In this document: positions 12,672 through 63,737 of the stretch, one piece after another | Numbering within the stretch: position 1 is the first letter of the stretch | Layout: each line of letters begins with the position of its first letter | Source of the DNA: Paramacrobiotus metropolitanus | Lineage: Eukaryota > Tardigrada > Eutardigrada > Parachela > Macrobiotidae | Direction: 5' to 3' | Assembly: GCF_019649055.1 (NCBI RefSeq) | Contig: NW_026570230.1 | Location: 992,001 to 1,056,000, forward strand | DNA: 64,000 nt | The notes under the pieces: generated by a model | The model's database searches: none | The model's input: the letters and a program-made list of their open reading frames with translations, nothing else | What the model was told of the DNA's origin: nothing | Program-made: the position numbers and the translations under genes

Positions 12672-13577
12672 CAGAAGGCAGTTGTATACCGGCACTAAGC
12701 AGTAAGCAGTGGTTGGCGATGGTAAGCGATATCTGATATCTGCTTGATTTATTCAGCTGCTTGGAACAGGTTGTAAGGTTTTAATGGAATTTTGTATCGT
12801 TGTTGTATAAAAACTTTAATATTTTATCGGTGTCTTTATTGAAATGATCATTTTGTCAGCAGTTTCAGTACCTAATAACAGTTGAAAATGTCACTACGAT
12901 CCAGTGTTTCGTTTGCATTTTCGCTATGAGAACACATACGTAGGATGCTGTTTCAGTGTCAGATAAACAATCACGTACTAGTACTGTAATTTGTTTGGGG
13001 GATCTGCTTCTGGAGGGAAGCTCAAAATTTGCTTTCGATATTGACCGAGTATTATGTGGTAGGTGTTGCGATAACCCCAAACGGGCTACACTAATGAGAA
13101 GGCAAAAAAACTGTATGGATTTGTGGCCGTTGGTTGCGGCGGGTTTGGTAGGTGTTTCAATTGTTTCAACAATTAATTAGGTAGTGTTATCGTAAAGTCA
13201 CCGTAAAGCACAGTGCGGGTTTAATACTGACAATATTAAAATACAATACAATACGAGTACTGTACATACAGGAAACTTCTGTAAACACAAGTAAATAATT
13301 TGTACAATCAGTTGTTTGGTATCGTGAGCCGGTACGCGGGATGATCGAATTTTCGTTTAATCCAGCGAAAGCATTGTTTTCTTAATCATTCGGCTGATTA
13401 TGTTCACCCACTTCATTGCTTGTCTTATCTAGCATATGTCCTTGATTGCATTTGGCCTTGATTACACTTCGTCGTGATAATCCGTATAAAATTACCAAAT
13501 CATTCTGGTTCCTTGCAGTGTTCCTGCATTCCGTGGCCGGTATCCCTACGTTGAAATTTGAATTTATCTCATCCACC
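12672..13577. other. intergenic spacer, no gene seen
   Basis: AT-rich sequence between the F-box gene and the ceramidase gene, both on the plus strand. It should contain the F-box 3' UTR and the ceramidase promoter. A small open frame at 12956-13180 has no family features. Confidence 0.5.
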
Positions 13578-16500
13578 ATGAACTTCCTGTCACGTGCAGT
13601 TTTCGCTCTGGGAGCACTGGCCTGCGTAACGGACGCCTCCTACCTCATCGGTGTGGGCAAAGCGGACGTTACCGGTCCGGTAGCGGAAGTGGGCATGATG
13701 GGCTATGCCGATCTGGGCCAGAAGACCGCCGGTCTCCTGAATCGTCTCTACGCCCGCGCCTTCATTGTCTCCAACCCCGCCAACCCGGCGGAAACCGTTG
13801 TCTTCGTCAACTGCGATCTGCAGGCCGTCTTCCAGCAAGTGCACCTCGAGGTCATCAAGCAGGTCAAGGCCAAGTACGGCGGCGTCTACAACGAACAGAA
13901 CATCATCCTCCACGCCCAACACACCCACGCCGGACCGGGCGGATCGTCGGCCTATCTTCTGTACGATTTCACCATCCTGGGATTTATTGAGGACAACTTC
14001 CACGCCATCGTTAACGGGATCGTTAAGGCCATCGACAATGCGCATAATTCCCTGGCGCCTGGGAATGTCAAGATGGTGCAGGGCCAGGTGGCCAACTGCG
14101 GACGGAATCGATCACCGGAAGCGTATTTGAACAATCCCCAGGAGGAACGGGATCAGTATGCTGAGGATAAAGATTCCACGATGACGGTGCTGAAGTTCAG
14201 TGATAACGAGGGAAAACTGCGCGGTGTGCAGGTGGTGTACCCGGTGCACCCGACGAGTCTCAACAAAAGCAATGAACTGGTTAGCGGAGATAATAAAGGT
14301 AAGGTAAATGTGATGCCTTAAACCGTGATAGAAGTCTTTACTTTGTGTATGGGAAAATAAAATTTTGATTCTAAGTACTGTATTTCTTCAAATTATCAGG
14401 TATAACGAACTGTACAAAGTGCTTCTAACTTGATCCGCAGTTGCACTACATAGCCGTGTGCTTTAAAATGTTGCGTCGCATTCGTTGTTAAAAAGTTTAT
14501 TTTTAAGAACTTGATTATTTCTTTTATTTCTTTTAAAAAAGTTATCTTTAAAAACTTTCCGTACAAAACATAGCAGCCAGGACATTTTACAATCAGTACT
14601 ATATACGATCGATTATTTATTTCATTTTCTACCCATAGACTACGCTTCCGTTATGAAGCTGCCACCACGTTTAAACCAAGCGCAATGTGTATAGCACATT
14701 TTAAACTACTGCTAAGCGTAATGTGATAAATATTTACTAGTTCTAAGAACTAGTACTGTACCAGTATTCATAGCTTTTGCATTTTTGAATCATATGGAAT
14801 TACTAGCTGTACGTGAAATTCTTTACTTCATAATATTATGTTAAAATGAAATTTGTTATAGGTCATGCTGCGTGGTTGCTGGAACAGCGTCACAAAGGTG
14901 TCATTGCCGCCGTTGGCATTTCCAACGCCGGCGACATCAGTCCCAACATGATCGATAACGGTGACGGGACATTCCGTGGAGAAGGCCGCGACCAGATCGA
15001 AAGCACTGAAATCATCGGCACCCGTCAGGCCGACAGAGCCGACGAGCTGATCCGCTCCGCCGACGGCACTCTCCTTACCGGTACTCTCGTCGGGAAACTG
15101 GCCTGGGTCAACTTCGCCAGCGTCAACATCGCCAACACGCCAGGCGCCCGCACCTGTCCCGCCGTGGCTGGACAGAACTTCGCCGCCGGCACAGAAGACG
15201 GAGTGGGACTGGGTGTTTTCCAGGAGGGCGACACTGACGCCAACCCGCTGTTCGCCTTCGTCTCCAGCGCGATTAAACCCACACCCCAATGGGTGCGGGA
15301 CTGCCAGACCCGCGCCAAGGTGCCACTGCTCCCGACCGGCTTAATGGAGCCGCATCCCTGGACACCCGATGTGTTGGGCATGCAGATCCTGCGCATTGGA
15401 CAGTTGGCAATTGTCTCGGTGCCGTTCGAAGTCAGTACGATGGCCGGACGCAGAATTAGGAAGACGGTGCTGAGCAGGCTGGAAGGCAGCGGTGTGTCTC
15501 ATGTCGAGATTGCCGCTATCAGTAATGGATATTCACAATACCTGACCACGCGAGAGGAGTATGCTTTACAGGTACGTAATGCTCGCAAGGAGTAGGGCCA
15601 GCCGGCCAGGCATTTATATTAACGTAACGACAGTTCTAACTTCTCACTAACTAGAGACGATCATCACGTTTGGTAATTAGAAACCTGCAATACCTGCTTG
15701 CCTTCTTGAGCGACTTGTAGATGTATATGAAAACCTGTATATGTCAGTCTTTGACGTAAAAGCGTCGGTGACGTAAAAGCGTCGGTACGCGCTTTATATT
15801 CATTTGCGCTATTTTTCTTTAATCATATCACTGCTTATTAATGCCATACTAAATTCAGCCACAAGATCTATTAATATATAAAAGTAACATTTCATAAAAT
15901 TAATAATAATTGTTATCAAAGGCAATATAAAATAAGAGGGCATGACACTGTTCATGTTCCGATATCCGACGATTTCTGAAACTGTTTTACAGAATAATGT
16001 TAAGTTCCTAGCTTGTTGTTAATATGAAATTGCGTACCAGAATCACAAATACGAGAAAAACAGGAAAGTGGTTTTTTCTCGTATCTTCAATGATTATTAA
16101 CGATTACAAACAGTGTTATTTCATTGTGCTTTCGTTCGGCAGCATTATGAAGGAGCCTCAACCCTTTTCGGCCCGTACCAACTGGAAGCCGTCCAGCAAG
16201 AGCTGGCCCGCGTTGCTGATTCCATCGCCAACCCCGCTCACACACTGGACATTGGCGCTTCGCCATACTTCTTCAACATCGACGACCTCCTGAACTTCCA
16301 GACCGGTGTCCTGCTGGATGACAAACCCTTGCTGAAACCCTTCGGGGCTGTTCGCGAGGAAGCCAGGACCCAGTACAGCGTCGGCCAGACCGCCAGTGCC
16401 GCTTTCTACGGCGGTCACCCCAAGAACCAGTTCGCCCAGGTGGAATCGTTCTGCGACGTGGAGCAAATGCAGGCTGATGGAACGTTCAAGCGTGTCATGC

Positions 16501-16703
16501 GGGATGATCACTGGGATGTGCGATTCAAGTGGAGCCGAACGTCGATTGCCTACAGCAACAGCCAGTGTGAGTGGTACATCCGTGCGGGTGGCGAGTACAC
16601 GACGGGAGTGTACCGGTTCAAGCACTACGGATTCCACAAGAGCGGATGGACCGGCACGATTCGGGCGTATGAGGGACAATCTAACACGTTCCTTGTTGTC
16701 TGA
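13578..16703 (+). CDS. neutral ceramidase
   Basis: Three exons: 13578-14298, 14862-15571, 16143-16703, all GT/AG with matching phases, about 663 residues; animal neutral ceramidases are roughly 700-780. The enzyme hydrolyses ceramide to sphingosine and fatty acid, and family members are secreted or membrane-bound. The chosen ATG gives a signal peptide (MNFLSRAVFALGALACVTDA) directly before the family start SYLIGVGKADVTGP. Diagnostic pieces: HTHAGPGG (zinc site), NRSPEAYLNNPQEERDQY, HPTSLNKSNELVSGDNKG, and GDISPN carrying the nucleophilic serine, then YLTTREEYALQHYEGASTLFG. The C-terminal Ig-like domain is complete. Exons are much richer in G+C than the introns. Nothing looks broken, so this is expected to be an active enzyme. 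Confidence 0.95.
15752..15785. repeat. 17-bp perfect tandem duplication
   Basis: TGACGTAAAAGCGTCGG occurs twice head to tail inside the second ceramidase intron. Each unit also contains a short inverted pair GACG..CGTC. Confidence 0.85.
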
Positions 16704-27800: not shown

Positions 27801-29728
27801 TCAATAATGCAAGCGCTAATAAAATTTAAATAATTATTAAATTGGTAGAAAACTGAAGAAAATACTATACAATATGCGTCATTGTCCAGTTAGTTTTATT
27901 AGGAACTTAGGACAATATTGGCGATGATTGCGCTAGTTGGTAAATTACAAAAATGTATTTATCTAACTAAAACCTAGCAATTATCGTGTGTGTGCAATTC
28001 TGCACTTAAGTTATTAGCTAGCATGATACAATGGCCCAGTAAAGTATGGAATATGGATCATGATTAAATCACACTTGGTTACAATAAACATGGATAATCC
28101 AGCCTTATATAGAAGGCAGTGCCGCAATAGGCACTATGTGGTTTGATAACAGGCCCTAATACCCAATCCGGGATTGCCATCTGGAAGGCACCAGGAACGC
28201 CGCCATGGCACCTTTGGGAGGCCCATAACCAACAGCCATTTTGCTGGCATCCGGCGGCGCCTTCCAGAGGCCTCAAAGTTGGGGGGCTCCCAGATGCCAT
28301 CTTTTTGCCTACTTTATGACCTCCTGAAGGCCATCTTGCACCTTGCCCTTTAGAGGTCAGAGGGTGGTCGTAAATTTTGCACTGGGCCTATCCCTGGATA
28401 CGCCGGCTGGCATTCTGGAAATACTACCGCGACTATTTCCCCGTGAAACTGATCAAAACCACGGAACTGGACCCCCGCTGCCGGTACATTATGGGCTGTC
28501 ATCCCCACGGGATCATGGGATGTGGATTCTGGAGCGCCCTGGCCACGGAGGCGAACGGCTGGGGAACGCTGTTCCCCGGGATCGATCTGCATTTGCTAGG
28601 GATGAAGGTGATTTTTCAGTTTCCACTGTACCGCGAGTACTGTATGGCTTTGGGGCTGTGCGATGTCAGCCGGGAGAGCATTGAGTACTGGATGAGAAAG
28701 GCGCCGGGAACTGCGGTGGGGATTGTGGTCGGAGGGGCGAAAGAGGCCCGCGAGGATGACTACCAAAATGTCAAACTCGTTCTGAAGAATCGAAAAGGTA
28801 CGTAGTTGTTTGCCCAAATACTGGATTTGGTCAAATTACGGCAATGTTTTATACTGCCAGCTTGCGTTTTGTCGTGGAGCTTCCAATATAGACAGCTCCA
28901 CGAATTATGCATTTGCTAAAGCAAATGCATAATTATGTATCTGTACAGTAGCTGTATTGTCGTTGTGGGGAATTCGCTAATAAATGTTGCGATTTGATGT
29001 TGCAGGTTTCGTTAAATTGGCTATTCAGACTGGGTGAGTTTGAGTCATTCGGTAAACTATGCACGCTTTAAATTATTTCGGTACATACTGGGGGTACACA
29101 ACATTCGCACCGAATTATAAAAAAGTTGTTCACTCCCTTCCATGATGATTTAACTAGAATAAATAATGAGTTCGTACACTGCAGGGCTCATCTTGTGCCC
29201 GTGTTTTCATTTGGGGAAAACGACGTGTACCGTCTGTATCACCCCGACGATGGATCCTGGATTGACCGGTTCCAACGCTTTGTGCACGCCAAAACTCGTT
29301 TAGCACCAGTGGTATTCTTTGGCCGTGGATTCTTCAACTACACCATGGGCTTCCTCCCCAAACGTCGTCCTATCACGGTTATCATCGGTGCACCCATTCC
29401 CACCGTGCAGAATCCGCAGCCGACAGAGGTAAAATTAATCCGAATTACAGTACGAGTACCGTATACCGTACTGTAATCGCACGTGTACGCCTTGTTTTTT
29501 CTTAGCGCATGCGGATACCGTGGTAGATACTAGATATCTGTAGTAGATGGTGACAGATACCAACCGCTATTACGAGTACAGATCTTAAGCATTATTTCAA
29601 TTTTTGCCATTTTGTAGGAAGAAATCGACCATGCCCACCGGCGCTACTTGGATGATCTACGCGATCTTTTCGATTCTCATAAAGCAAGTTGCGGCTATCC
29701 CAATGCCCAGCTGTCTTACATTGACTAA
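24844..29728 (+). CDS. DGAT2/MOGAT family acyltransferase
   Basis: Exons: 24844 to about 25071, about 28380-28797, 29006-29033 (28-nt exon), 29185-29428, 29618-29728 (TAA). The last four are joined by GT/AG introns with agreeing phases. Family landmarks: N-terminus FVPLFVPLERRLQTLA, a hydrophobic hairpin (VTSTLLLFFLLFTPFCFLPI), DWDQSSRGGR, YYRDYFPVKLIKTTELDP, the catalytic HPHG in MGCHPHGIMG, VVGGAKEA, SFGENDVY and the C-terminal FDSHKA. Enzymes of this family add an acyl chain to mono- or diacylglycerol in the ER membrane, making storage lipid. The first junction is abnormal: no GT donor or AG acceptor can join exons 1 and 2 in frame (TAA at 28371-28373), and both edges fall in an inverted repeat. 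DGAT2 versus MOGAT cannot be settled by eye. Confidence 0.88.
25066..28386. mobile_element. 3.3-kb segment with 15-bp terminal inverted repeats
   Basis: The left end is CCCAGCGCAAAATTT (25066-25080) and the right end, read on the minus strand, is CCCAGTGCAAAATTT (28386-28372), one mismatch in 15. Read from the third base the ends are CAGCG/CAGTG, which resembles the hAT-type CAGNG start. I see no 8-bp target duplication and no transposase frame. Both ends carry subterminal sequence rich in GGCCTCC (25137-25280 and 28170-28350), including GGAGGCCTCC twice at 25156-25179. The segment coincides with the first intron of the acyltransferase gene and contains tom40-like fragments. A non-autonomous DNA transposon that captured host sequence is inferred. 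Confidence 0.55.
25812..26672 (-). pseudogene. tom40-like pseudogene fragments
   Basis: Three separated minus-strand pieces match successive parts of TOM40, the mitochondrial outer-membrane import channel. Near 26607-26672, after TTGCAG, AYPVMLGKIKANGNFNAQ matches the segment ending in NAQ-x-IH, but a TAA follows IHH. Near 26165-26345, DYRARDVTASLTL matches DYRGSDFTA-x-VTL, and in another frame IRFPGGQIVSLSSRYTG matches the later RRPG..SLAGRYTG segment, so a frameshift lies between. Near 25815-25905, SVSSVGYAVEIPK matches the SFGYQLDLPK region. The pieces keep gene order and are G+C-rich islands in AT-rich sequence, consistent with old exons. The stop and frameshift argue against function. 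Confidence 0.55.
28798..29005. repeat. two hairpins in DGAT2-like intron
   Basis: AATTATGCATTTGC (28903-28916), loop TAAA, then the exact complement (28921-28934): a 14-bp perfect stem. Directly before it, GTGGAGC (28875-28881) pairs with GCTCCAC (28895-28901). Together they resemble a small foldback element inside the intron before the 28-nt exon. Confidence 0.75.
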
Positions 29729-33500: not shown

Positions 33501-35252
33501 ATAAAATGCTGATCGTAGTCAGATAACCGGCACGCATATTTCTGGTTTATTTTACCTATCGAGGTAGAAATAGGAAAACCAGGATGATTGCTCTTCGTCG
33601 GCATACTTTGGCCACAATGCTCGTAGAATAAGATATAAGCACTCCTTGTTTTCAAAGTCGACGAATTTGGATGTCCACCTCCGAAACACTGCTTTTTCAA
33701 CTCCTTATCATCATCTAATGTGCTCTCAGTCACGCTCTCATCAGAGAAAAAATACCACTTCTGCCCGTTTCTGAAAGAGAACTAAGCAGTTCATCTAAAA
33801 ATCTGTAGACAATAGTATATGCTTGGAAGCTTTCTAAAAATATGAAATAAATAATCACGGGGTTCGGGAAAGTATTAACCACGGCCGAACTCGTTAGGCC
33901 GTCACCCACAACAAAAAACCGTTTGAACTGCAGATATGTACATACCGGTCCAAAATATATGAGTAGTATTGACCCCAAGTTGCAGTACCAGAATGGATAA
34001 CAATGCCAACAAGTCTGTAGTTAGTATCGATTATTTGCTGTTGTTTGTCGATTGGAGATTCCGCCAGATGTTTTTCAGTGGAGTATTCATCAGATTCGTC
34101 TCCAGGAATTTCCTCACCTTCGCGTTTGGCTAAACCGGCTGCTGTGTACGGCTCCATGTCAATCTCGCGTGGAAATTCGAAATAGTCATTAAGTTTAATT
34201 GGCTCTTCGCGCTCCCAGTCGTAATCGAATCGCCTCAAGTGGAAAGTCAGGACTGGCGGTAGTTTTTTTATGCAGAACCGCTTTTTTGCCACTACTTTGC
34301 GTTTACATTTTTCACATTCATAAGCATTGACGCCTTCCAAAAGATCTCCTTTTACGTATAGCTCTATGGCATCTTGCAGAGTATGGGAAATTCGGATGTC
34401 AACATACAACGAAGTAAATGGTAGTTCGCGAGAATAACGATGCGGACAATCTCGACAGATTCTCTGATCAGCAAAGATCCCACCAAAAATGCGACTCATG
34501 AATGGCGTCTTTTTTATTGACTTTAGTCCCTCGTCCACGCTGTCCACAACGCAGTTGTAGAAATGCATGGCATCATGCGGTTCTCTCAGGTTTATCGGCT
34601 CATTATCAAGCCGGAAATGTTTCCAGAATTCAGCTGGAGTGTAGAACTTATGCTTGCTATAAGCCAGATGTCTGAAGATCCCCTGCAAATGTTTGATCAA
34701 TCCAGTATTGTATTCCTGCGCAGCTGTTCCCCCTAATGAAGGACTCGATGTATCACATATTCTCTTTGTATCATCCGCACCATACAGAAAGGTCATGTCA
34801 TGGAATGTCAGCACGACATCGCGCAGACTAGGTATCATGAAGAGCTGCTGCAGCACACAGTTCATATAGCCGGTGGCTCCGGCATTTTTTAAGCCGACAA
34901 AACCATGCGGTGCAACCGGCGGACAGTAACTATGCTCCCAACCGATAATGGATGGAGCATCGGCGTAAAACAGTGCCAGTGTTTCGTCCAGGAGTCGAAC
35001 ATTAGTAGCCGAACCCATACACAGTTCGCTAATCAAATCAAATGCTCGAGTGACGCCTGGTGCGTGAGCTGCGTGGCACGTTTGACAACCTTGGTGTGAA
35101 TATTTCAAAAAAGCGAAAGGATCGGAACTGGCATTATCGAGAACGGAACAACCGAGCGCCCTTGTCCGACATCCTTGATCACCGATCGCGGCGGCTTCTG
35201 AACAGGCCTTGACCAGAACTCGTGCAATCGGGAATAAAAAATCATCCAGCCC
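30526..35252 (-). pseudogene. USP9X/fat-facets-like, catalytically dead, nonsense codon
   Basis: Eleven exons: 33946-35252, 33556-33770, 32913-33449, 32539-32696, 32157-32398, 31943-32095, 31694-31874, 31141-31313, 30885-31070, 30526-30606 and upstream 35461-35583. Domain order matches the C-terminal half of USP9X: UCH catalytic domain (GFVGLKNAGAT, HDAMHFYN, CPHRYSRELPFTSL, CEKCKRK, FEFPREIDMEPYT) then helical C-terminus. In the Cys box the nucleophile is Gly (GAT-G-YMN, codon GGC); in the His box GHYYS is GQYYS (CAA). A TGA at 33028-33030 interrupts EYFV-stop-CPS, where the family has EYLLECPS. The 32539/32398 junction is one base off unless an upstream donor is used. The roughly 1500 N-terminal residues of USP9X are missing. 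All other phases agree, so it is young decay, a transcribed pseudoenzyme, or sequence error. Confidence 0.75.
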
Positions 35253-42703: not shown

Positions 42704-43738
42704 TTACGCCCCTCGGAAGCGGAAATTCATTGGGCCTCGTTTTTCTTCCATCATCATATCTGTTAGAAAATCGGAAATCTTGAAACCTTTTATCAGTGAA
42801 ATTCTTCCAGTAATTAGTACAACTTGCATGCGATTTAAGTATTACTTGCTACTGATTTTGCAATTTTTATCCTGCCGCCCAGAATTATTCAGAATATTTT
42901 ACAATATCCGCAAGACTCAGAGTTATTAAATGCCGCAAATTATATACTGTATGCTGAATAACATTACTGGGTATACTTTACAGATGTTGTTTTTAAAAAG
43001 ACGCTTTGCGCTCTTTATACTGATTTGGCAGATAATTTACTTTTACTGCATTCATATAATATACAATCCTCTGATTTTTGTAATTTATTATTTACTACAT
43101 GGGATTTTATCCTCTTCGCTACTTTACTCTATGACGTACGCACCATCATATTGGTTATTGTAGTAAGAATCCCACTCGTCTTTCTTGCCGCGCATCCCGA
43201 AGAATCCACTGGAAGGCGCCCGTTTTGCTCCACGGAAGCGGAACGAGTAGGGACTGCGTTTTGGTCGGGATGATTCCGGTGCGGCATGATCAGCCACAAT
43301 CTGTACACTCGTAGCCGGCTATTAAACAAGAAAAAAAAGTCCAATAAATTCGGCGTTATTTTAATTTCATCCAGCCAGACATGACTGATTTCGCACGCAT
43401 GCAGCATATGTGCACAGTGCCACACTCACCTCCTCGGCGTTGCGTTTAGCGCCACGGAAGCGGAAATTTAGCGGGCCTCGTTTGTCGCGCTCATCATAAT
43501 TATACAATTCATTCACCAGTGCTTCCTAGATGCGCGACAACATATAAACCAGTTAAATGATCATTTCCCTAGAAAGGAATAATCCACTGGCTGCTGAATT
43601 CTAGCGCCTTACCCGTTCGGCATCCCGTAGTGCCGCTTCCACCGCTTCCCAGGAGACAGGCCGGTCCACATTGGCTTCCACGATTATGCTGATGCACAGT
43701 ACAACGCCCATGTACAAAGCGCCTCGAAGCAGTTCCAT
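42704..43738 (-). CDS. neuropeptide precursor: tachykinin-related peptide plus three FRFRGA peptides
   Basis: Four exons: 43613-43738, 43430-43525, 43144-43318, 42704-42759 (TAA). All introns are GT/AG and phases agree; product 150 residues. A signal peptide opens it (GALYMGVVLCISIIVEA). Dibasic sites release GPLNFRFRGA (KR both sides), SPYSFRFRGA (KR both sides), APSSGFFGMRGKK, and a C-terminal GPMNFRFRGA that ends at the stop codon. APSSGFFGMR followed by GKK matches the invertebrate tachykinin-related signature FxGxR-amide and would be amidated. The three FRFRGA peptides would end in free alanine, since the last copy stops right after GA and the others are cut after GA by KR. Expected to be secreted from neurons and act on a G-protein-coupled receptor. 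Confidence 0.88.
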
Positions 43739-50644: not shown

Positions 50645-53600
50645 ATGTTTGTTCCTTGGCCCTTTCCAGAGGACAGGTTATTGTTTTACTTTTGGATGTT
50701 CGCTCTCGTTCTTAAAAACGTCAGTGCAAGTTGTAATGGGTTGTCGTATTCTGCTGAAAACGCACAAGATTCGGCTGAATACACCTTCCGCCAAAAACGC
50801 CAGTCTGGTAAACGAAATTATGTATATTCATATATTTTATTAATTTATAGGTTATGGATTTTGTTCCATTGTGTGCTGTATATTTTGCTCACAGAACATG
50901 CTTCTGTGTCTGATTTCTGGTTTATCTCGACTTCGGATTTAACAGTTATTTTACAACTATTGTGCTAAAGTAGCGCTTGCTAAAGTATTGCTAAAGTACG
51001 TATTATTACATGGTTGGCTATTGCCTCTAGAAGTGGTTTTTGTTCCCAGACGAAAAACGCGTTGTGCTACCAATGCGAGGACAAAACTTTTCTTGTGATC
51101 TACCATTATTGCGCTATGCCAAGCTGACAGCGAGTTCATCGTCCGGTCCTGCATTTCGCTCAGCGGACAGCGCCCGTTTTACCGGTACAGTACGACCAAA
51201 TTTTTTGGTGATGCTGAGGACGTTCTATTTTCGCCTAAATTATCTGCAAAATCCTTTTTCGTTATCGGATGAGAAACTGCGGGTTGCAACTTGAACGGAG
51301 CACTATGTTTACAGAAGGCGGAGCTCAGAATGCGTGGAGCCCGACAGTGTCCGACTTTAACCAGTACCTTCTGATTGACCTGCTGGATATCAAGCGGATA
51401 TGGGCAGTGGCCACAATGGGGCGCGCCAAAACGCAGGAGTACGTCGTCAACTACACCCTGGATTACGGCCAAACAGCCGATAATCTCGTTCCATTTACAG
51501 ATCAGTTTAATGCACCCAAGGTAAATCTTTTGCTGAGGCTTCATAGATCTAGAATTTTTTGTTGCGGCAGCTGTCGATTAATTTTTTAGGTATTGCACCA
51601 CTAACAAACGTGAGTGTAATGTGTTGACTGTAAATGCTGCTTACGATTTATAGGTACAGAGTATAAAATAATAGCACTGAGTCTTGGCGCAAAAATTGAC
51701 AAGAAATTCACCGGTTTCGTACGCTGGATATAAAATATATATCTATATTACAGGATAACGATTTAGTGAGTACCAGCAGAGCACGTGCTTTATTATCTAC
51801 TCTATTTTATGTAGCTCGCACACAAAACCATAAGTTACTATATCACTGCGTCAAGTTACCGTACGTATTAACCCGTACTATAAATTTATAAGAATTTTGT
51901 AAATACATTCTATACAGTGACACTGCGGGGCACTTACGGAAAACAGTCGAGCTTTTCAGCACGTGTACACTGCATTGTATGCATGTACTGCACAATGCAC
52001 ATACAAGTTAAACATGATCCGCTGAAAAAGATAACTGCTATATTTTGTTTCATTTTAAGTAGGTTTTCCATGGGAATAAAGACAGCGTGACAGTTCAACG
52101 GAATGATCTGGAATACCCACTAGTAGCGAGATTTATCCGCATTAATCCGCGTCAGTGGAGTCACAGCATTAGCATACGAATGGAACTGTACGGCTGTGAT
52201 CATGGTTAGTACGGAAAATGTACAGCAGTGCAGGAAGTTGTAGGCAAAATAACATAATTAAAACTGATAGTATGTAACTGTAGCCCGAGGAATTCTTAAT
52301 TAATTTGGTGACACGAAGACAGCATAAAGATTTTAGTTAAAAACTTTATGCCATCTGGGACATCGCTAAATTAATTCAAATTTACGTTTCACTTAATAAA
52401 ACCGGTAACTGCAAATTTTTCACAACGTTGAAAAATTTTCAAGTCCAAACTGGAAACCGTGTGTTAAATACTTCTCGTATGTTTTAGCATGCTATTCACC
52501 GTATTGCCGGGATAATTAACGTTAATATTATGTACCTTGTACTGCAGTTAAACAATTCAAAACGCAAAACGTTTCTGTTACGCAGACAGCGACATGGCCC
52601 ATTTCGATGGAAGCGGCTATATCCGCATCGACTTAGCCTTTAATCCCATCGCAGCCGTGGAAGACAGCCTGCATTTCCGCTTTAAGACCGTTCAACCCGA
52701 CGGACTACTGGTGTTCTCCGAGGGTTCCCAGGGCGACATTCTCCTGTTGCAGCTCGTACGCTCCCGACTGTATTTAACAATGGGATTGGGCGGTGGCTAC
52801 CGCGACACACTGCCAGGAGGCAGTGCCTTGGATGACGGGTTGTGGCATACGGTGCGGGTCATTCGCGATGAAAAACACCTGAAGTTTATTGTCGACAACA
52901 TCTTACAAACGCAGATATTGTCGGGTGGTTATTATAAACTAAATCTGGAAAACCAGGTATGTACAACTGAGTTTACGCCAAATCAAAAAGCATAGACTAA
53001 TTGACCGATGAGGATTATGATTGATAATAATGCTGAATATTACTGAATAGATATTTATCGGCGGTATGGACAACTTGCGGAAATATGGCGTGCAGGTAAG
53101 GCCTGTAGTCTAATGAATTGAAATTCGTGTGATTATAATTAGACAACATGGTTTATGACGTTTTTTCGAGTTTCCAGGCCAGAACAAATTTCTACGGTTG
53201 TATGGAAAATTTACGATTCAACAATACCAACATTTTCTGGCAGCTGCAACATATCCGTCCGCCGGGTTTCGAACGCGTTCGTGGCATCGGTTTCTTCTGT
53301 CCGGTAAATGTGCAAATGGCCCTTTATAAAATAATTATATAAAAATCAAAACTACTGTATTGTGCTGTAATATAATATAAAGATTGCAGTTCTGCGGCCC
53401 CTGTATGCTCAAAAGCTGCTTCCAATTTTTAGGAAATTGTGTCGATGCCGATGACCTTCACTAGCTCACAGTCGTACCTGATAGTGGCAGCACAAACGTC
53501 TTCAAGCATCAACATTTCCTTCCAGTTTCGAACATTTGATAACAACGGATTGTTCCTCTTTCGGGAATTCGAAAATGGATTTATTAAGGTACGTACTACG

Positions 53601-54828
53601 TAGTATATCTACAGTGTCTGCACATTACACATCCGCTCTTTTCTGATCATTTGTTTGTAATCGAATATTTTTCCAAGTTTACTTTAAGCATGAAGTTACC
53701 GTGCATAAGATTACAAATTACAGCTTTTCCTTGATCGACACCGCTTAAAACTGCGCATAAAAACTCCGGAAATTCCTTTGGATACGATCGAGGCGTTTGC
53801 TGGTACAATTCATAAATTTACTCTGTACTGAATGGATTCTATCCTAATGGTAAAATATAGTAAAAGCATAAAAGTAACTGTATTTCAGGAGTAACGGTCA
53901 ATGATGGAATGTGGCATTCGTATTCTGTATCAGCGCGTCTCAATCAAATTATACAGACACTGGACCAAATGGTAGCCACCACCAAGCGATTACTATCCTT
54001 CACCGCTAAACCGGAATATGTCTTCGGTACTTCGGTAGCATATTTAAAACCGCGTGGACGATTAGTCGAAAGGCATTTCTTTGCGATTTTTTTAACTATG
54101 AATTTGAACTATCGTTGTAAAGGCTACCGCAGAGCGGAAGACGAGCTGGGCATCCGCGGGTGCCTGCGCAAACTGGTTGTTGACGGGATGAACCTGGATA
54201 TCACCGCAATGGCTAGCCGAATATCTGCATCTTATGTTTCTCAAGTTCTGTTCAACGAATGTCCAATGAGAGATCGGTAAGTTATCAGTTTATGTGCGCT
54301 GTAATAGTTACTTCCGAATTTCAAATCCGATGAAGTGAGATCGTAAACTCTAGATCTACAATTACAATTTGCGTGAGGAGGTATCAGCTTATCCGCGTAA
54401 TTTGCGTCATAAGTAACCGAAGTAGAAGGTTTATGGAGAACAGCGGCTGCGAAGTCAGGTATCATCACTTACTCGTATAATCCGCTAGTTCAATTACGAA
54501 TAATATCAGATGCAATAGAATAATCCTCTGCAAAACTTTGTTGTCCCTTTCTTGGCAAGCAAAATTATGTGAGCAACTGTTGTTTTTTGTTTATGGCAAA
54601 AATGGGAGAAAACAGAAATAAACAACAGTAGTCTTTGTCAAAGCAGTTTTCAGCTGGTGTATCAGCAGTACTCATCTTGTGTATTCATCTTGTATTTTAC
54701 ACAGATGTATTCCAAACCCTTGCCATCACAAAGGGATCTGCCGACAGTCTTGGGAAGAATTCACCTGCGACTGTTCCAGAACTGGCTATGGTGGCGCCGT
54801 GTGCCGTAGCTCTTCCCATCCTATGACC
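50645..54828 (+). CDS. neurexin-IV/Caspr-like protein, N-terminal part
   Basis: Exons: 50645-50807 (signal sequence, FYFWMFALVLKNVSA), 51315-51520, 52063-52204, 52586-52956, 53051-53095 (45 nt), 53178-53303, 53433-53588, 53724-53802, 53889-54276, 54705-54828. All GT/AG, all phases agree. Domain order: discoidin/F5-8C (AWSPTVSDFNQYLLIDL to RMELYGCD), laminin G 1 (AHFDGSGYIRIDLAF, LDDGLWHTVRV, YGCMENLRFN), laminin G 2 (FQFRTFDNNGLFLFREFENG, VNDGMWHSYSV, IRGCLRKLVVDG), EGF (CIPNPCHHKGICRQSWEEF). This is the start of the neurexin-IV/contactin-associated architecture, a transmembrane adhesion protein of septate or paranodal junctions. The fibrinogen-like region, later laminin G domains, membrane segment and tail are not seen; the last donor GTGAGT opens an intron running into the GC-rich block, so the gene is partial here. 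Confidence 0.92.
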
Positions 54829-56104: not shown

Positions 56105-59100
56105 GGTCGGTGTGACCAAGGTCGGCCTACCGATAAGTCGATCGGCGGCTAAAGGGAATTCGGCTATGTTCAGAATTCTTAAAGTTCAGATCGGAAAAAG
56201 CTGTATGTAAGTCATGCGGCCTTTGTGGTCGTCATGTACAGCAGTTCCGTTCGAAAAGTGGTCAGTTACAACCGTTTAATCTGCTACCACGAGCCTGGTT
56301 TGGAGTAATCCGAGTCGAACTGGCTCGAAGGTCCGATCGGAAATCGTGGGTTTGTTCGATGGAAGTGTCCGGTCGACTTCCATCCGGTGTATTCCGTTGT
56401 TATCCGACCTTCTGTCGAGGTCGGTCATCCTATCCGTCGGTGGTCGACTAGGGTTAACCTGCAATAACATGCCCATGTGGGGCTAAACAAGTGCCTTCAG
56501 GTCGAATTCATCCACCGCAAACTGTGATCAATCGTCTTCGGTCATGCTGACTGGGTTTCCGACCTCCGACTTGTGGTCGGTTATGGTCGGCTTCGGAAAG
56601 TCGGATGAACTGTGTGCTCATCCGTCCGAAGGCTAGGTTTTTCCGCCAGGAGGTCGGTTCTCGACTTCCAAATGACGTTACCGACTTGTTGTCGGTCACT
56701 TCCGACCTTCATTTGAGGTCGGCTAATTTCCGACTTCTTCGAGTCGGATGAACTGTGTGTTCATCCGTCGAAAAAGCAAAGTTCTTGGGCTAGGAGGTCG
56801 ATTTTCTATTTCCGATGGATTTTCCGACCTGTTGTCGTGTACTTCCGACCTCCCTCTGGTGACTTCCGACTTCCGTTCGAGGTCGGTTATCCATGTCGGA
56901 GTTCCAAGGTCGGCTGATTTCCGACTTAAAAGTTCTGTGCCTACGGTTACAGTTGGCCGGGTCTCCGTTGTTCGGACATCCGTCGGTCAGTATTGACTGG
57001 CAGAAGGATGTTCGGCAGCACAACTCCGTTCCTTCTGTGGCTTCTGACATGAACTCTGGGTCGGATCCGAGCTACTGTTGGCTTGTTTATCCGAATGACT
57101 TGCCTCTGGGCCGCCAAGTCCTGCGAAGTAAGAGTTTCCTTGGCATCTGTTGGCCGAGTGACTGGCGCTTCGTCATGCGACTGTGCTCGCCTACAACACT
57201 AGGGGTCTTTGTGGCCCCGGTTGCCGAGCCAGGCTCTTTGGTTTAAACTTCATGCACATGCAAGTCCCTGAGGTCGTCAGATTCGATTCTTCCGTTTTGT
57301 TTTGTCGCGAACCTGAGACGCCTAGCCACTTCTGTTGGGGGGTAGACAACTCACGTCCACGGGGAGATTTTCTTTGCCGCTGACGAAGGCCGACTGGCCA
57401 GTACTGTTGCGGGCAGGTGGTCATCGTCATCGGGGGTTCGTTAAAGGGGTGCCGGCCGAGTGTTCTAACTCGGTCTGCCTAAGGTGTTCCATTGAAGACA
57501 TGGGGAAGCAGGTCGCGGCGGAGTCGTTGGAGTGGCGGCCAAATCACCGTCGCTGTTCCTCTTCAGGTAATGGCAGCACGTTCGAGACGCGCGTAGTCGT
57601 GGTCACCGGTGAATCGGCTGGTTTACCCGATATCGTCCGGGGGAGACTGCGGTTGGACTCCGGGTACAGGTTCCTAGTTGAGTTCCTGTAGATCTGGGTT
57701 CAAACGGAGAATCCGGTCAAGTTGCCACGTAACCGTTAGCTTCCGTTCATTCTTCATGGGCGACTTCTGTTGGCCGTTATGGTCGACCTGTGTGGTCGGC
57801 CATAATGTCGATTTCTCGTTAGTCGGCTACCGTATACTTAGTCGATCTGTGTGATCGGCTAAGGTAGCAAGTCGTAGTTCGGCGATCATGCATCGTTGCG
57901 ATTCCGACTTCAACTCTCTGAACAATCTGTTCCGAGTTTTCCAAAACCGATCTTTGTGATCGGCTTGCACAACCGACCTTTGTGGTCGGCTAGTGCCGCG
58001 ATATCTGTTATATCTCCAAGTTATGAGTGAAGTACGAAGTCGACCTTTGTGGTCAGCTCCGAGTCTTCCTGCACTGTTGGCAGCTCGGCCGAGGGATATC
58101 CGCTATTTACACTGGTGAAGGCTGCTCGGCTACCCGGTTCCGAAGTTGGCCACGGGTGCTCGGCAAACATGGCGGTGAACACGCAGCGACGTATTCAGCG
58201 CCACGTTAGCGTAATCCTCTCGGTCTATGCTCCGGAGTCGGTTGGCCGGAGTAATCTTCATAGCCGGTCGTGGTTAATGGTGTGATCTGTACCATGTAAC
58301 TATCGGTCGGCTCCATGTAACGCGGATTGGGGCTTCTGTTGGCTCCGATGGTCGCAGAACGTGGTTGTCGATCTGCTATGTTAGCAGATGTGGTTCACGA
58401 TCTGTTCATGCCATGCTGGGGAACTGAGGTCGGTTTGCTCAGTTCTGTCCAGGGGATTCCTCGGGAGACGTACCGGAACGGTGGAAAAACCGGTTTGTCA
58501 GGTCTAACCATCCATGTCCGGGTCAAAACCGAAGAATCCGGCTGACTTGTGTAGTCAGCATTCTGGCAAAGTCATCGTTGACTTCCGCTGTATACATGGT
58601 TTGGTCGGTTTCTGGGGAGAGAAAACTGAAGAAAAATGTCCATTCCGGGGTCGTTTCTCGACGGTGCCATTTGTCCGTTAGACTGGTTCTCAGTCAGGTC
58701 GGTTCTCGACCGTGCCGTTTCTCGGCGTTAAGTCCCCTCGGTTTGTTCCGGTGGGGGATCGAGTTCCAATGTGGGAACTCGATCTTAACTGAGTGGGACT
58801 TCGACGGGTTTGTCGCCGCCGAAGTAATCATCTTCATCTTCATCATCCGGGCCAGGTCGATTATGTGGCCGGATGGTCGGATCCTTGGGTTTACAAGTCG
58901 CCGGGCCACTCCGTTGAGACATCTCGTCGGTCTCATCCGTTTCTTGGCCGGGGCGATCCGCTCTGCCTTTCCTCGATTCCCTGGCCGCCTGTTTGCGGAG
59001 CCGCAGCGCATATGGTCGTGCGCCGGGTGCTATGTCATCTGACATCCAAGGTTCGTAGGGCGATGAATTGAATCCGCTGGGCAAAGTCTTCTTCTGTCGG

Positions 59101-61750
59101 TACCAGCTAATGAATCTGGTCGCGTCGTCGCTGGGATCTATGTGATCCTCACAAAAGGCATACTTTGTCGCATACCGTTCATGTGTCATAACCGTAAGTC
59201 CAATTCCCGTTTCTCCGGATCCAGTCCGTTTTCCTGGTGGAGGTCTGGTCGGCTCTTTTCCGACTTGCCGAATGACTGCACGTTGCTCTTCGATTCTGTC
59301 TCGAAGATCAACAGGACCAATCCTGTGTCGGAGGTCGTGTCCCGCTAGGTTTTTACTCGGTCGGCGTTGCTGCTGTTGAGCCGCCGGTTGAGTCCGATTT
59401 CCGTGGGTTCCGTGTTGGGGAATCTGCTGGGAAACAGTTGGACGAGCCTGTGTGACTACTGGCGTTGCCCTATGTGGGATTGCCATCAACTGTTCCTGAG
59501 TCGCCGGAGTGAGGGTAACCGACTGTTGGGTTCCGTCTGGCATGTTCATCATCATCGTTACCGATGCACTCGTCAATGGTCGGTGTGGGTCTCCGACGAA
59601 GACGTCGCGCACGTCGTGGATCAGCTGTTCGCTATCCGAGCGACCCTGTGTGGGTGCCGGTAACCGAATTTTTATTTCTGGTTCATAATCGGTCGGTGGG
59701 GGATGGACCTTCATCGAGGCAATTCGTTTGTCGACCTCTCTGATCTTCCTCTGGTCCTCCAATTGACGGTTTGCGTCTTGCAGTTGGCGGTACTCCCACA
59801 GTCTATCCGTTAAGACTGGTGGTCGGGTTCCTTCCCATCTCGGGTCGCGGGTTCGTTGCCGCTGGAGTGTAGCCAGGTTATCCTGTTCATGCGACTCTAG
59901 TTGGTCGACAAGGTATTCTCTGCCGGCCAGGTACCGATATGCGCTCAAGTTACCAGCGACAACATTAATGTAAAGTGCCGCCGCCTGAGCGCGGTGTTGT
60001 GGTCCCGTGCCGGTAACTCGTTCGTTCGTGAAGGATACGATGCATTGCGCGCAGGGCAATCTGTTGTTGTCCCTCGTCGCGTTATCCCTGCACTGTTGGC
60101 AGTCCACCGTGTAAGCTTCCGTTCGAGTCTGTCAAAACAAAGGTAAGCCAACCGTTTCTCGGTTGCGTCCTATGATTTACACCCTATAATTACTACGGTC
60201 GGGCCAGGTCGGTTCTCGAGCTGGTCCAAGACGCCTTTGTGGTCGTCTAATGAGGTAAGTCGACTTCTGTTGGTCGGTGACGCCTATGTGGTGTCACTGG
60301 AGGAAGGTCGGTTATGCCTCTCCTCCAACGCGTTCTGCGTTTCCTCATTCCCGTGTCGGTGCTTCTGTTGACTCCGGCCGACTTGCTTGGTGCGAGTCAG
60401 CCAACTCGATCGGTTGTGCGGAGGTGGATCGTTCCTTCGGTAAGTGTCCGTGCCGGTGAGTTGATGGGTTTAAGGCGATGAACCGTTGGCCGCCCTGGAC
60501 TTGATCGGTGTTTGTGGCAAATCTTTGTTGATAGAGTGCCTTCGATAAGACGAATTCCAGTTCGTCTTCCAGGGAATACTTCTTGCGTCCGGCAGTTACG
60601 TCCGGTTTAGGCTTGTATTTGGGGTCGACCAACTGCGGTTCTGCTGCTGTCCACTCGAACTCGAACCGTGCTGTAAGTTGGTGGAGTATTTCTCCACGGG
60701 TAAGTCCGTCGGGATGCCAGGACATTTCCATACACGCTTCAATGGCGTGTGTCCATCCTTCGTATGTTGAAGGGGCCGGGTCCTTTTTAGCCGGTGGGAA
60801 CTCGTAGTACATCCGCTTTGTGCTGGTGTACGTACGTATTATCTTTCCGGCATGGTATCCCAGGTCGCAGTAATGTCGCACGTTATTCTGGCTAAGTTGT
60901 CGCCAGTCGCCCTTCTCGTCTACCTTCCAATGTTGGAGGAGTTTGAAGGCGATTCTTGGTGTGGCAAATTTCGGTCCACGGTTAGCCAAGGCCTTCAGGG
61001 CGGCGAATGTGTACATCCATCCCGCATCGTATTCCGATACACTCGGCTTCGGTTTTGAAGCCGATTTAATTCCCGTATACTTGACCCTAACGTTGGTCAA
61101 CGGAGGGATGTCGTCCGGCAACACTTCCATGGTGTCTTCGTTCCATTCGGAGAGAAGTGGCCGCTCGTCAGTATCAGGGGTTATCGGTATCCGTTTACCG
61201 TACTGACGAGGGATATACACTCCACCATCGTCTTCATTTCCTTTGGATTCTTCAGCTTTGTCGCTGCCGTCCTTCTCCTCCGGTTGTCTATCCGGTATCT
61301 CCGGTTCGCCCTGCTGTTGAGGTGCCGAGCTCGACGGTGGTGGAGGTTTACCATCCCCGTCGTCGTCATCATCGTCGTCGTCCTTCGGCGATCCATTTCC
61401 AGGTGTTTGGAAATCGTCGTCGTCATCGTCATCTTCGGTTTCCTCCTCGGATGACGAGATCGGTTCCGATGACTTCGGTTCCTTTTTCTTGGCCGGCTTA
61501 GTCGACTTCGTCTTGGCCGACTTCGACTTTCCTTTCTGTTGGGTTAAGTCTTCCGGCTCCGGTGAAATTTCCATAGGCGAAGACGGCGGGAGTGACTGTA
61601 CGTCCCTCGGAATGAACCGTCCTTTCGCGCTTCGAGTCGGTTTTGCCGTACTTGCTCGTCCCCCTGGAGCTGCTGCCGTGCCGACATATGTTGTCGGTTC
61701 ATGGGGTGCTCGAGGTCGGGGTAAGACTTGGACTCGTCTTTGTGACGACT
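56105..61750. repeat. dispersed hairpin family with loop TTTGT/TGTGT/TATGT
   Basis: Stem/loop/stem examples: 57777-57805 (12-bp stem, TGTGT), 57837-57863 (11 bp, TGTGT), 57947-57963 (CCGATC, TTTGT), 57973-57989 (CCGACC, TTTGT), 58038-58058 (TTTGT), 58541-58559 (GCTGACT, TGTGT), 58757-58784 (11 bp, loop AATGTG), 59643-59655 (ACCC, TGTGT), 60229-60248 (TTTGT), 60276-60298 (9 bp, TATGT), 61681-61697 (CCGACA, TATGT), 61735-61747 (CGTC, TTTGT). Weaker members: 56105-56117, 56566-56580, 56681-56695. Stem bases differ while pairing is kept, including G-T pairs, and the five-base loop is nearly constant. Confidence 0.75.
58785..60128 (-). CDS. unknown protein with paired CxxC motifs, GC-rich block
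   Basis: Open from 60128 to the stop at 58785-58787, about 447 codons. There is no ATG near the start; an acceptor-like TTTTGACAG precedes 60128, so it may be a downstream exon. Near the N-terminus two CxxC pairs (CQQC, 12 residues, CAQC) could hold zinc. Then follow a charged helical part (LWEYRQLQDANRQLEDQRK), a glutamine/proline-rich linker, and an acidic C-terminus (DDEDEDDYFGGDKPVEV). I do not recognise the family. The perfect hairpin at 58757-58784 abuts its stop codon. Confidence 0.5.
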   Translation of the reverse strand, partial: TRTEAYTVDCQQCRDNATRDNNRLPCAQCIVSFTNERVTGTGPQHRAQAAALYINVVAGNLSAYRYLAGREYLVDQLESHEQDNLATLQRQRTRDPRWEGTRPPVLTDRLWEYRQLQDANRQLEDQRKIREVDKRIASMKVHPPPTDYEPEIKIRLPAPTQGRSDSEQLIHDVRDVFVGDPHRPLTSASVTMMMNMPDGTQQSVTLTPATQEQLMAIPHRATPVVTQARPTVSQQIPQHGTHGNRTQPAAQQQQRRPSKNLAGHDLRHRIGPVDLRDRIEEQRAVIRQVGKEPTRPPPGKRTGSGETGIGLTVMTHERYATKYAFCEDHIDPSDDATRFISWYRQKKTLPSGFNSSPYEPWMSDDIAPGARPYALRLRKQAARESRKGRADRPGQETDETDEMSQRSGPATCKPKDPTIRPHNRPGPDDEDEDDYFGGDKPVEVPLS

Positions 61751-63737
61751 GTCCAGCCGTACGAGCTATATGCAGCAAGGCGGCTGCATCCTCCGACGGT
61801 TGTTCGTTGGAGTCACTATATTCTTCGATAGGTTCCGTGCCGGCCGGAGGCTTGTCCGTGTTGACGTAAGACATCCGGAGGTTAAACTCACGCCGATGTT
61901 GTTCCGGTATGAAGTTAGGCACAGTGTACCGTACTGGTACGTCGCGTTCCGCGTTGGTCGTCTGAAGGGTGTGTTGTTCGACCAAGGACGTAATCCGGTC
62001 GCTTATCCTATCCGTGATGATTTCGTCGATGTTCCCCTTCTTGTCCATGTACATCACGTTATATACACGGGCAATTTGGACCAACGTTGATCCACGGGGA
62101 TTCCTACTGTATCCGATGCACCGTGCAATTCTAGTCGGTGTATCGTCCGCATTCCTGGCGGCTGCACTTTTAAGTGCTTTGATGAGGTCCGGTGGAAGCA
62201 GTTCGGCCGTCCGTCCCCATTGTCGGTGAACGGCTACTGCTAATCCGAAATCCAAAGTCCAGGCGACGATCTGCATCATGAGTTGATGCGTCAACCATTT
62301 TCCGGTTTCGCCTCCGACTTGGATGTTATTGGACAGGTCTCGGACCAAGGACTGGTAAATGTCCACGCCGTTTTTCCTGGCGTTTTCGATGCTCCTTACA
62401 ACTTCGACGTGTACTCGGACGGTACGGATTAATGTATCGACCGGGTCATCCGGCTGTTCGTCCGGAAGGCGCTCGCGCTCGTCATCTGGGGCTGGCCACT
62501 GTGATTCGTCCGTGTCCGCTCCATGGTCGAACATTTCCTTCAGGTCGCCTTTAAATCCTTCGTAAGGGTCACCTTCTCCGTGGTCGGAGATTGAGTCCTT
62601 TTCCTCGATGTCCGAGATCTGATCGGATTCCACATCGGATTGTTGCTTGGATGTGGAGGGCTGGGGTTGTTCGACCGGAGTCGGCGGTTTTGGTGGGTTC
62701 CGTAGCCGACCTCCTGAAGTCTTAGCCGGCTTTGTGCCGGTCCGCTCCATGACTTCTTTGAATTTTCGCTCAACCGCATCCTTGTCGTGCGGTTGTTGAG
62801 CTTTCTCCTTTTGCTCGGTCCTTTGTGGGCCGGCATCCGAAATATCCAAGTCATCGGATGACTTGTGCCGCTTGGCCGGATTAGGCTTCGGCGTCTTTAC
62901 CGTAGAGTCCGACTTCGGTTTGGTCGTCTCTTTGGCCTCCGACTTTACTGGTTTCTTCTGAGTTTCCGTCGGTTGCGGCTTAGCGGGTTGTTTCGCTGCT
63001 TCCTTCTTGGCCTTCCGATTATCCTTGTGGGATTTCGCGGAATTGGCCGAGTTGATGACCCGTGTGTCCAGATCATCGTTGATCTGGACGGAAGGTTGTC
63101 TGGTTGGAGGAGGGACTTTCATCTTGACGGATTGCTGTGCCGTCTTCTTGGTCGACTTGGGTTCCGAAGCGCTGACCTTGTGTGGAGTCGGCGTAGCCGC
63201 TTGTAGGGCTTTAGGTCGACTCTTTTCCGCTCGGTAATGTTCTCCCATACGTTTCATAACGTCGGCCATCTTCTCGGTAAGCCGGTCGTGGTCACGCCGA
63301 GCTTCTGTGGTGTTTCCGAGTATGCTGGCACGTCGGATTCTCAATGAGTGCCAGAGTTCCCTATCCTCCGGGTATGCCATGTCGATGCAGGCATCCTGTT
63401 CCGACCTTGTCAAGTCCTTCACATGTTGTAAGGCTGGGTCGTCATGGAATTCGCGCGATGAGTCCTGAGGTGGTTTCTCCTTAGCCGTACTCCGTTTGGT
63501 CGGTATGTTTACCGATTCCTTTGCCGACTCGTTCGTTCGAGACTCGTCAATTGTTAGACGTGGGCCGGAGTGTACCGAGGTCGGTTCGTCCCTTTGTGGT
63601 GACGTTTCGACCGTTGTTTCGACTCGCGCTTCCGAAGGGGATGTGTGTCCATCGCGTCTTCGGTTTTCTTCGGTTTCGTCGGGGTATTCCGAGGTGTAAA
63701 CCTGAGTGGTTTTTCCATTGTCGGTTGACTCGGCAGC
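60345..63737 (-). CDS. large low-complexity protein of unknown family
   Basis: A frame open for about 1,130 codons without an early ATG; the first Met is in DMAYPED near the start of the conserved-looking part. Two ordered segments stand out: a helical stretch around the middle (VHVEVVRSIENARKNGVDIY, then WLTHQLMMQIVAWTLDFGLA) and a C-terminal block (WMYTFAALKALANRGPKFAT, then GWTHAIEACMEMSWHPDGLT) that could be winged-helix-like. Between them are lysine/proline-rich linkers and acidic runs of eight aspartates, nuclear-protein style. The frame overlaps the upstream frame by about 180 bases. A 210-base gap with two hairpins separates it from the next frame. I cannot name the family. Confidence 0.5.
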   Translation of the reverse strand, partial: AAESTDNGKTTQVYTSEYPDETEENRRRDGHTSPSEARVETTVETSPQRDEPTSVHSGPRLTIDESRTNESAKESVNIPTKRSTAKEKPPQDSSREFHDDPALQHVKDLTRSEQDACIDMAYPEDRELWHSLRIRRASILGNTTEARRDHDRLTEKMADVMKRMGEHYRAEKSRPKALQAATPTPHKVSASEPKSTKKTAQQSVKMKVPPPTRQPSVQINDDLDTRVINSANSAKSHKDNRKAKKEAAKQPAKPQPTETQKKPVKSEAKETTKPKSDSTVKTPKPNPAKRHKSSDDLDISDAGPQRTEQKEKAQQPHDKDAVERKFKEVMERTGTKPAKTSGGRLRNPPKPPTPVEQPQPSTSKQQSDVESDQISDIEEKDSISDHGEGDPYEGFKGDLKEMFDHGADTDESQWPAPDDERERLPDEQPDDPVDTLIRTVRVHVEVVRSIENARKNGVDIYQSLVRDLSNNIQVGGETGKWLTHQLMMQIVAWTLDFGLAVAVHRQWGRTAELLPPDLIKALKSAAARNADDTPTRIARCIGYSRNPRGSTLVQIARVYNVMYMDKKGNIDEIITDRISDRITSLVEQHTLQTTNAERDVPVRYTVPNFIPEQHRREFNLRMSYVNTDKPPAGTEPIEEYSDSNEQPSEDAAALLHIARTAGQSSQRRVQVLPRPRAPHEPTTYVGTAAAPGGRASTAKPTRSAKGRFIPRDVQSLPPSSPMEISPEPEDLTQQKGKSKSAKTKSTKPAKKKEPKSSEPISSSEEETEDDDDDDDFQTPGNGSPKDDDDDDDDGDGKPPPPSSSAPQQQGEPEIPDRQPEEKDGSDKAEESKGNEDDGGVYIPRQYGKRIPITPDTDERPLLSEWNEDTMEVLPDDIPPLTNVRVKYTGIKSASKPKPSVSEYDAGWMYTFAALKALANRGPKFATPRIAFKLLQHWKVDEKGDWRQLSQNNVRHYCDLGYHAGKIIRTYTSTKRMYYEFPPAKKDPAPSTYEGWTHAIEACMEMSWHPDGLTRGEILHQLTARFEFEWTAAEPQLVDPKYKPKPDVTAGRKKYSLEDELEFVLSKALYQQRFATNTDQVQGGQRFIALNPSTHRHGHLPKERSTSAQPIELADSHQASRPESTEAPTRE

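Follow-up and report, generated by a model that had tools for sequence, protein, structure and literature searches.

What does a tachykinin-type gene signal when most of the peptides that it would release are not tachykinins? This question is raised by a gene of the eutardigrade Paramacrobiotus metropolitanus, found in a stretch of 64,000 nucleotides of contig NW_026570230.1 (hereafter, the window), whose predicted product carries a single tachykinin-related peptide (TRP) together with three decapeptides ending in FRFRGA. A preliminary description of the locus took the FRFRGA copies for TRP repeats that had diverged into a separate, non-amidated family. Tachykinin (TK) precursors have been described in the tardigrades Hypsibius dujardini and Ramazzottius varieornatus (Koziol 2018, via PMC6880623); according to the account in that review, tardigrades have two TK-like precursors (one of TK type and one of natalisin type) and one TK-like receptor (PMC6880623). 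By examining the structure of the gene, the conservation of its repeats and their likeness to known peptide families, assisted by searches of the genome for related precursors and receptors, we ask where the FRFRGA units may have come from and what they may do.

Structure of the precursor gene

Encoded on the minus strand, the gene runs from a start codon at 43738 to a TAA stop codon at 42706-42704, and a splice model built from the sequence alone joins four exons in frame into a precursor of 150 residues. Its introns, of 87, 111 and 384 bases, have GT-AG boundaries in all three cases; the lengths of the first two are divisible by three, yet both contain in-frame stops. Exon 1 (43613..43738) carries the start codon, a putative signal peptide (hydrophobic, residues ~1-22, cut after VEA, as judged by eye) and the beginning of a spacer, which continues into exon 2 (43430..43525). 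There follow FRFRGA copy 1, GPLNFRFRGA (43448..43477), with KR on both sides, and the start of a second spacer. Exon 3 (43144..43318) completes this spacer and encodes copy 2, SPYSFRFRGA (43226..43255), again between KR sites, the second of which also precedes the TRP, APSSGFFGMR with its Gly amide donor (43187..43219); after KK comes an acidic, Tyr-rich spacer. The end of the acidic spacer is in exon 4 (42704..42759), where KR precedes copy 3, GPMNFRFRGA (42707..42736), and the stop codon comes directly after it.

A TRP is recognized by the ending FX1GX2R, a Gly amide donor and a dibasic site, all of which are present in APSSGFFGMR-G-KK (43219-43181), and the precursor as a whole has the signal peptide (by eye) and the bracketing dibasic sites of a TRP precursor. 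Pfam left the precursor, searched in a provisional joined version, unrecognized (best E 0.65). The clean four-exon gene with signal peptide and KR/KK sites that had been proposed for this locus is thus upheld, as are the four peptides read from it, all of which occur in the joined reading, and the presence of one copy of an FXGXR peptide with Gly and dibasic site. Judged by these features, the locus is a real TK-type neuropeptide precursor of a eutardigrade.

Two other ends of the precursor were considered. Without the third splice, exon 3 reads on to a stop at 43124, so a form lacking copy 3 is possible. As for the stop after copy 3, the bases that follow the copy match a splice donor at 4 of 9 consensus positions, compared with 7, 8 and 7 for the donors of the model, while the donor of the second precursor described below matches at 6; among GT sites on the minus strand of the window, 72.7% reach four consensus positions and 3.4% reach seven. 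Since the donor there is poor, this stop is most likely the true end of the precursor.

Uniqueness and conservation of the FRFRGA unit

The genome searched comprises 169,799,020 bases in 533 contigs. An exact DNA pattern for FRFRGA-Lys-Arg had two matches in these 169.8 Mb, both in the precursor gene (copy 3 has a stop where Lys would be, and hence falls outside the pattern), and none in the reversed control. With one mismatch allowed there were nine matches, of which two were again in the precursor gene and none was copy 3, against four in the reversed control; four of the other seven were viewed in context and lay in no precursor-like frame, by eye. FRFRGA, FRFRG, NFRFRG, FRFRamide and SFRFRG are all absent from the full-text literature searched, which excludes supplements and most subscription papers, in agreement with the earlier remark that no FRFRGA family had been described. 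The units apparently represent an undescribed, non-amidated peptide set on a precursor of known kind. It had been proposed that they form a separate non-amidated family: the lack of an amidation signal holds for all three, whereas the word family is premature, because they are known from one gene in one genome. A scan of viral contigs with the precursor returned no relative, as expected for an animal gene.

A blind direct-repeat search of the gene recovered one three-copy family, of 38 bases each, exactly at the FRFRGA copies, and two further families, both two-copy, of 18 and 14 bases. Across their ten codons the three copies have at least 17 nucleotide differences, while residues 2 and 5-10 of the decapeptides are invariant. 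The six codons of FRFRGA itself have undergone five nucleotide changes, all five silent: in copies 1 to 3 the final Arg codon is CGT, CGT and CGA, the Gly codon GGC, GGA and GGG, and the Ala codon GCT, GCA and GCG, different in each copy with the residue unchanged. In a random-substitution test run at three transition weights, with 20,000 trials at each (star tree, majority ancestor, independent random change), the share of trials with seven or more invariant codons was 0 to 0.015%, and the share with an invariant run of at least six codons and at least five changes was 0 to 0.01%. An estimate for the core only (0.0013-0.0021) is biased, because the core was chosen for its invariance. As five exclusively silent changes are rare under random substitution, the FRFRGA core, including the final Ala that would block amidation, appears to have been kept by selection. 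On a star tree with random change, the repeated unit thus bears the mark of purifying selection within the precursor, a conservation seen between the copies of one gene in one genome. The claim that the free C-terminal Ala is the true end of the peptides gains strength, since Ala is retained over three different codons and copy 3 stops exactly there.

A second TK-type precursor

Further TRPs were sought with two genome patterns for FXGXR-Gly-Lys-Lys/Arg, which leave Gly-Arg endings outside. They had 23 and 15 matches (16 and 9 in the reversed controls), one of which is the precursor gene itself. When 16 of the other 37 were viewed in context, a single credible precursor emerged, at C14:1202170-1203317 (L006:871-2018) on the plus strand; the remaining 21 comprise four with a stop, ten whose Arg position is taken by a Ser codon, and seven nearly identical to a match already viewed. 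The C14 gene has two exons, separated by an intron of 836 bases, and reads from a signal-peptide-like start through KR-APPAGFWGAR-G-KR-SVPDFYDYGF to a stop, with one copy of FWGAR. It is natalisin-like (the predicted peptide is APPAGFWGARamide) and carries no FRFRGA units. Because 16 of the 37 matches were viewed in context and Gly-Arg endings lie outside the pattern, further TK-type genes may exist in this genome. In the same search, near-identical 24-base matches encoding FSGSRGKK were seen on eight contigs (for example, C5:1887461-1887484); they probably belong to a dispersed repeat and not to a peptide gene.

A TK-type gene accompanied by a natalisin-like one corresponds to the two-precursor pattern summarized for tardigrades (PMC6880623), and the matching second precursor supports the assignment of the FRFRGA-bearing gene to the TK1 type. 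The natalisin-like gene would extend the pattern of Hypsibius and Ramazzottius to the Macrobiotidae, which bears on the timing of the split between natalisin and tachykinin signalling.

Candidate receptors

A fragment of an insect receptor served as probe for TK receptors; it had 38 matches in the genome, two of which were compared with solved structures. The second-best match (L015:1480-1730, plus strand; C23:502652-502858) is an exon fragment of a class A receptor spanning TM6-TM7, and its four best structural matches are all neurokinin receptors (NK3, NK2, NK1 and NK1; best E 1.7e-14). Other families come close behind: the prolactin-releasing-peptide receptor ranks fifth and NPY2 thirteenth. 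The fragment is thus a candidate tachykinin receptor exon, and counts in favour of the TK-type reading of the precursor gene. For the best probe match (L014) the closest solved structure is NPY2, with the substance-P receptor fourth, and its likely upstream exon (L020) does not resemble a TK receptor, by eye. Class A receptors are numerous in the genome (at least 147 matches scored among 1939 candidates, these being pieces and not a count of genes), so a separate receptor for FRFRGA is possible.

Surroundings of the gene

Elsewhere in the window, a neutral ceramidase is represented by three exon-like frames (13446-16703, plus strand; PF04734, PF17048), and there are exons of a diacylglycerol acyltransferase-like protein (28374-28805, plus strand; PF03982), of a ubiquitin carboxyl-terminal hydrolase (33894-35252, minus strand; PF00443) and of a protein with Laminin G domains (52552-54280, plus strand; PF02210, the second exon scoring under the curated cut-off). 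An open frame of 381 residues (11401-12546, plus strand) shows weak similarity to F-box families, short of their curated cut-offs. One of 1130 residues (60345-63737, minus strand) is rich in charged residues by eye and matches no Pfam family at E 0.001, and a second frame of charged type, of 448 residues, is found at 58785-60131 on the same strand. Scans of the window with Rfam, at gathering cut-offs, and for tRNAs returned nothing. At the level of the genome, a fragment of a CAHS desiccation protein had 18 matches (for example, at C30:31767-32129), the best of them 74% identical to the query at E 3.1e-48, CAHS proteins being described in the source consulted as specific to eutardigrades (PMC13389832). 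A tardigrade telomere repeat had no match in the genome, which would count against a tardigrade if that repeat is general, but the CAHS matches outweigh this; a fatty-acid-binding gene carried no signal as to species.

Origin and role of the FRFRGA units

The FRFRGA units do not have the C-terminus of any of three families with which they might be associated. They have neither a Gly beside the dibasic site nor the F-x-G-x-R spacing of the TRP ending FX1GX2Ramide; compared with the natalisin ending FXXXRamide, they lack an amide signal, and the position four residues ahead of their last Arg holds Asn or Ser instead of Phe; and FMRFamide-like and sNPF-like peptides are defined by RF-Gly followed by a basic residue, where the units have RF-Arg-Gly-Ala. 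It could nevertheless be argued that they began as paracopies of the TRP, diverged within the precursor, and still act as weak agonists or antagonists at the tachykinin receptor. They are similar to the TRP in length, sit like it between KR sites and share with it a Pro at position 2, a Phe and Arg-Gly, and copy 2 directly adjoins the TRP in exon 3. When the units were aligned globally to the two TRP-type peptides of the genome, with 5000 shuffles for each of the six comparisons, 6.4% of shuffles scored at least as well as the best alignment; for the other five, however, the proportion was 20 to 32%, so that the similarity is not clearly above that of shuffled peptides. The missing amide signal and FXGXR spacing also speak against such a descent, as does the fact that the three-copy repeat family of the gene excludes the TRP. 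Moreover, the tardigrade TK precursors described in the review yield one TK-type peptide each (PMC6880623), so an array of TRPs from which to diverge need not have existed, and on that layout descent from TRPs would be unnecessary. We regard this origin as unlikely. Of the preliminary interpretation as a whole, the TRP, the non-amidated units and the Ala end are retained, and the derivation of the units from TRP repeats finds no clear support.

The units might also be conserved spacers, serving sorting, folding or cleavage efficiency instead of acting as messengers. Many bioactive arthropod neuropeptides are amidated, and the absence of an amide from FRFRGA agrees with a role of this kind. Yet every unit has a dibasic site or a stop at each end, no second three-copy family was found in the gene, and the invariance is concentrated in the six C-terminal residues, a pattern common among receptor ligands; a spacer role seems to us rather improbable. 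If, instead, Ala were trimmed after release, the exposed Gly would allow GPLNFRFRamide and its kin to form, with calculated [M+H]+ of 1005.574, 1058.553 and 1023.531. Arg-Gly right before Ala does resemble an amidation signal with one residue added, and the codons of Gly and Ala both change silently only. Amidation requires a C-terminal Gly, however, and we know of no neuropeptide pathway in which Ala is trimmed for this purpose. A pattern for FRFRG followed by a dibasic pair, covering part of the Lys/Arg codon pairs, had five matches in the genome and none in the control. Four of the five carry Ser codons; the fifth does encode FRFRG-Arg-Arg, but its reading frame has, by eye, no precursor features. 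We give trimming of Ala very little credence.

Discussion

We lean, if only slightly, towards reading the locus as a eutardigrade precursor of TK1 type that yields one amidated TRP and three free-acid FRFRGA co-transmitters, with receptor binding as the likely reason for the conservation of the core. A prohormone convertase would cut the precursor at its KR and KK sites and a carboxypeptidase would trim the basic residues from the cut peptides; the Gly of the TRP would then be converted into an amide, as is usual for neuropeptides processed in this way, and the resulting APSSGFFGMRamide (calculated [M+H]+ 1055.509) would signal through a receptor of tachykinin type. The same cuts would free GPLNFRFRGA, SPYSFRFRGA and GPMNFRFRGA as acids, with calculated [M+H]+ of 1134.617, 1187.596 and 1152.573, three for each TRP, copy 3 presumably obtaining the same C-terminal end through the stop codon. 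The acids would be stored and released together with the TRP as co-transmitters, and binding to a receptor would best explain their strict conservation. Such a receptor is likelier to be their own than the TK receptor, because the units have neither the FXGXR spacing nor an amide. A bolder proposal, which we hold to be possible but doubtful, is that FRFRGA peptides constitute a genuine, unrecognized family of non-amidated tardigrade neuropeptides, co-released with tachykinin and acting through a receptor of their own; such a family could have escaped notice, since amidated ends and known motifs are what searches for precursors rely on.

If the co-transmitter reading is right, one precursor gives rise to an amidated tachykinin and three free-acid peptides, and the neurons that express it would emit two signals whose proportions are fixed. 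Searches based on amidated ends could then miss tardigrade peptides, and FRFRGA would offer a sequence tag leading toward an orphan receptor. In the peptidomics of Hypsibius, C-terminal amidation was treated as a fixed modification (PMC11879619), a setting under which the acids would go undetected.

Among known systems, orcokinin and proctolin are arthropod neuropeptides with a free C-terminal acid; they share this end with the predicted FRFRGA peptides and are not known to resemble them in sequence. The natalisins (FXXXRamide), the sister family of tachykinins in Panarthropoda, also have a C-terminal Arg with a Phe upstream, but FRFRGA lacks an amide signal and differs in the spacing of its Phe, and a separate gene encodes the natalisin-like peptide found in this genome. 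The tardigrade counterparts are the TK precursors of Hypsibius and Ramazzottius, compared here by description: they likewise carry one FXGXRamide-type peptide and occur alongside another precursor, which bears a natalisin-like peptide, and FRFRGA units are not mentioned in the account that the review gives of them (PMC6880623). Arthropod TRP precursors, such as Drosophila DTK, resemble the tardigrade gene in having FXGXRamide on a multi-peptide precursor, but in arthropods it is usually the TRP that is repeated (PMC6880623), whereas here the repeat is a non-TRP without amidation signal. In the spider mite, TK1/TK2 occur with an unrelated peptide X, which, unlike FRFRGA, is amidated; as presented in the review, this case indicates that a TK precursor can also house peptides unrelated to TKs (PMC6880623).
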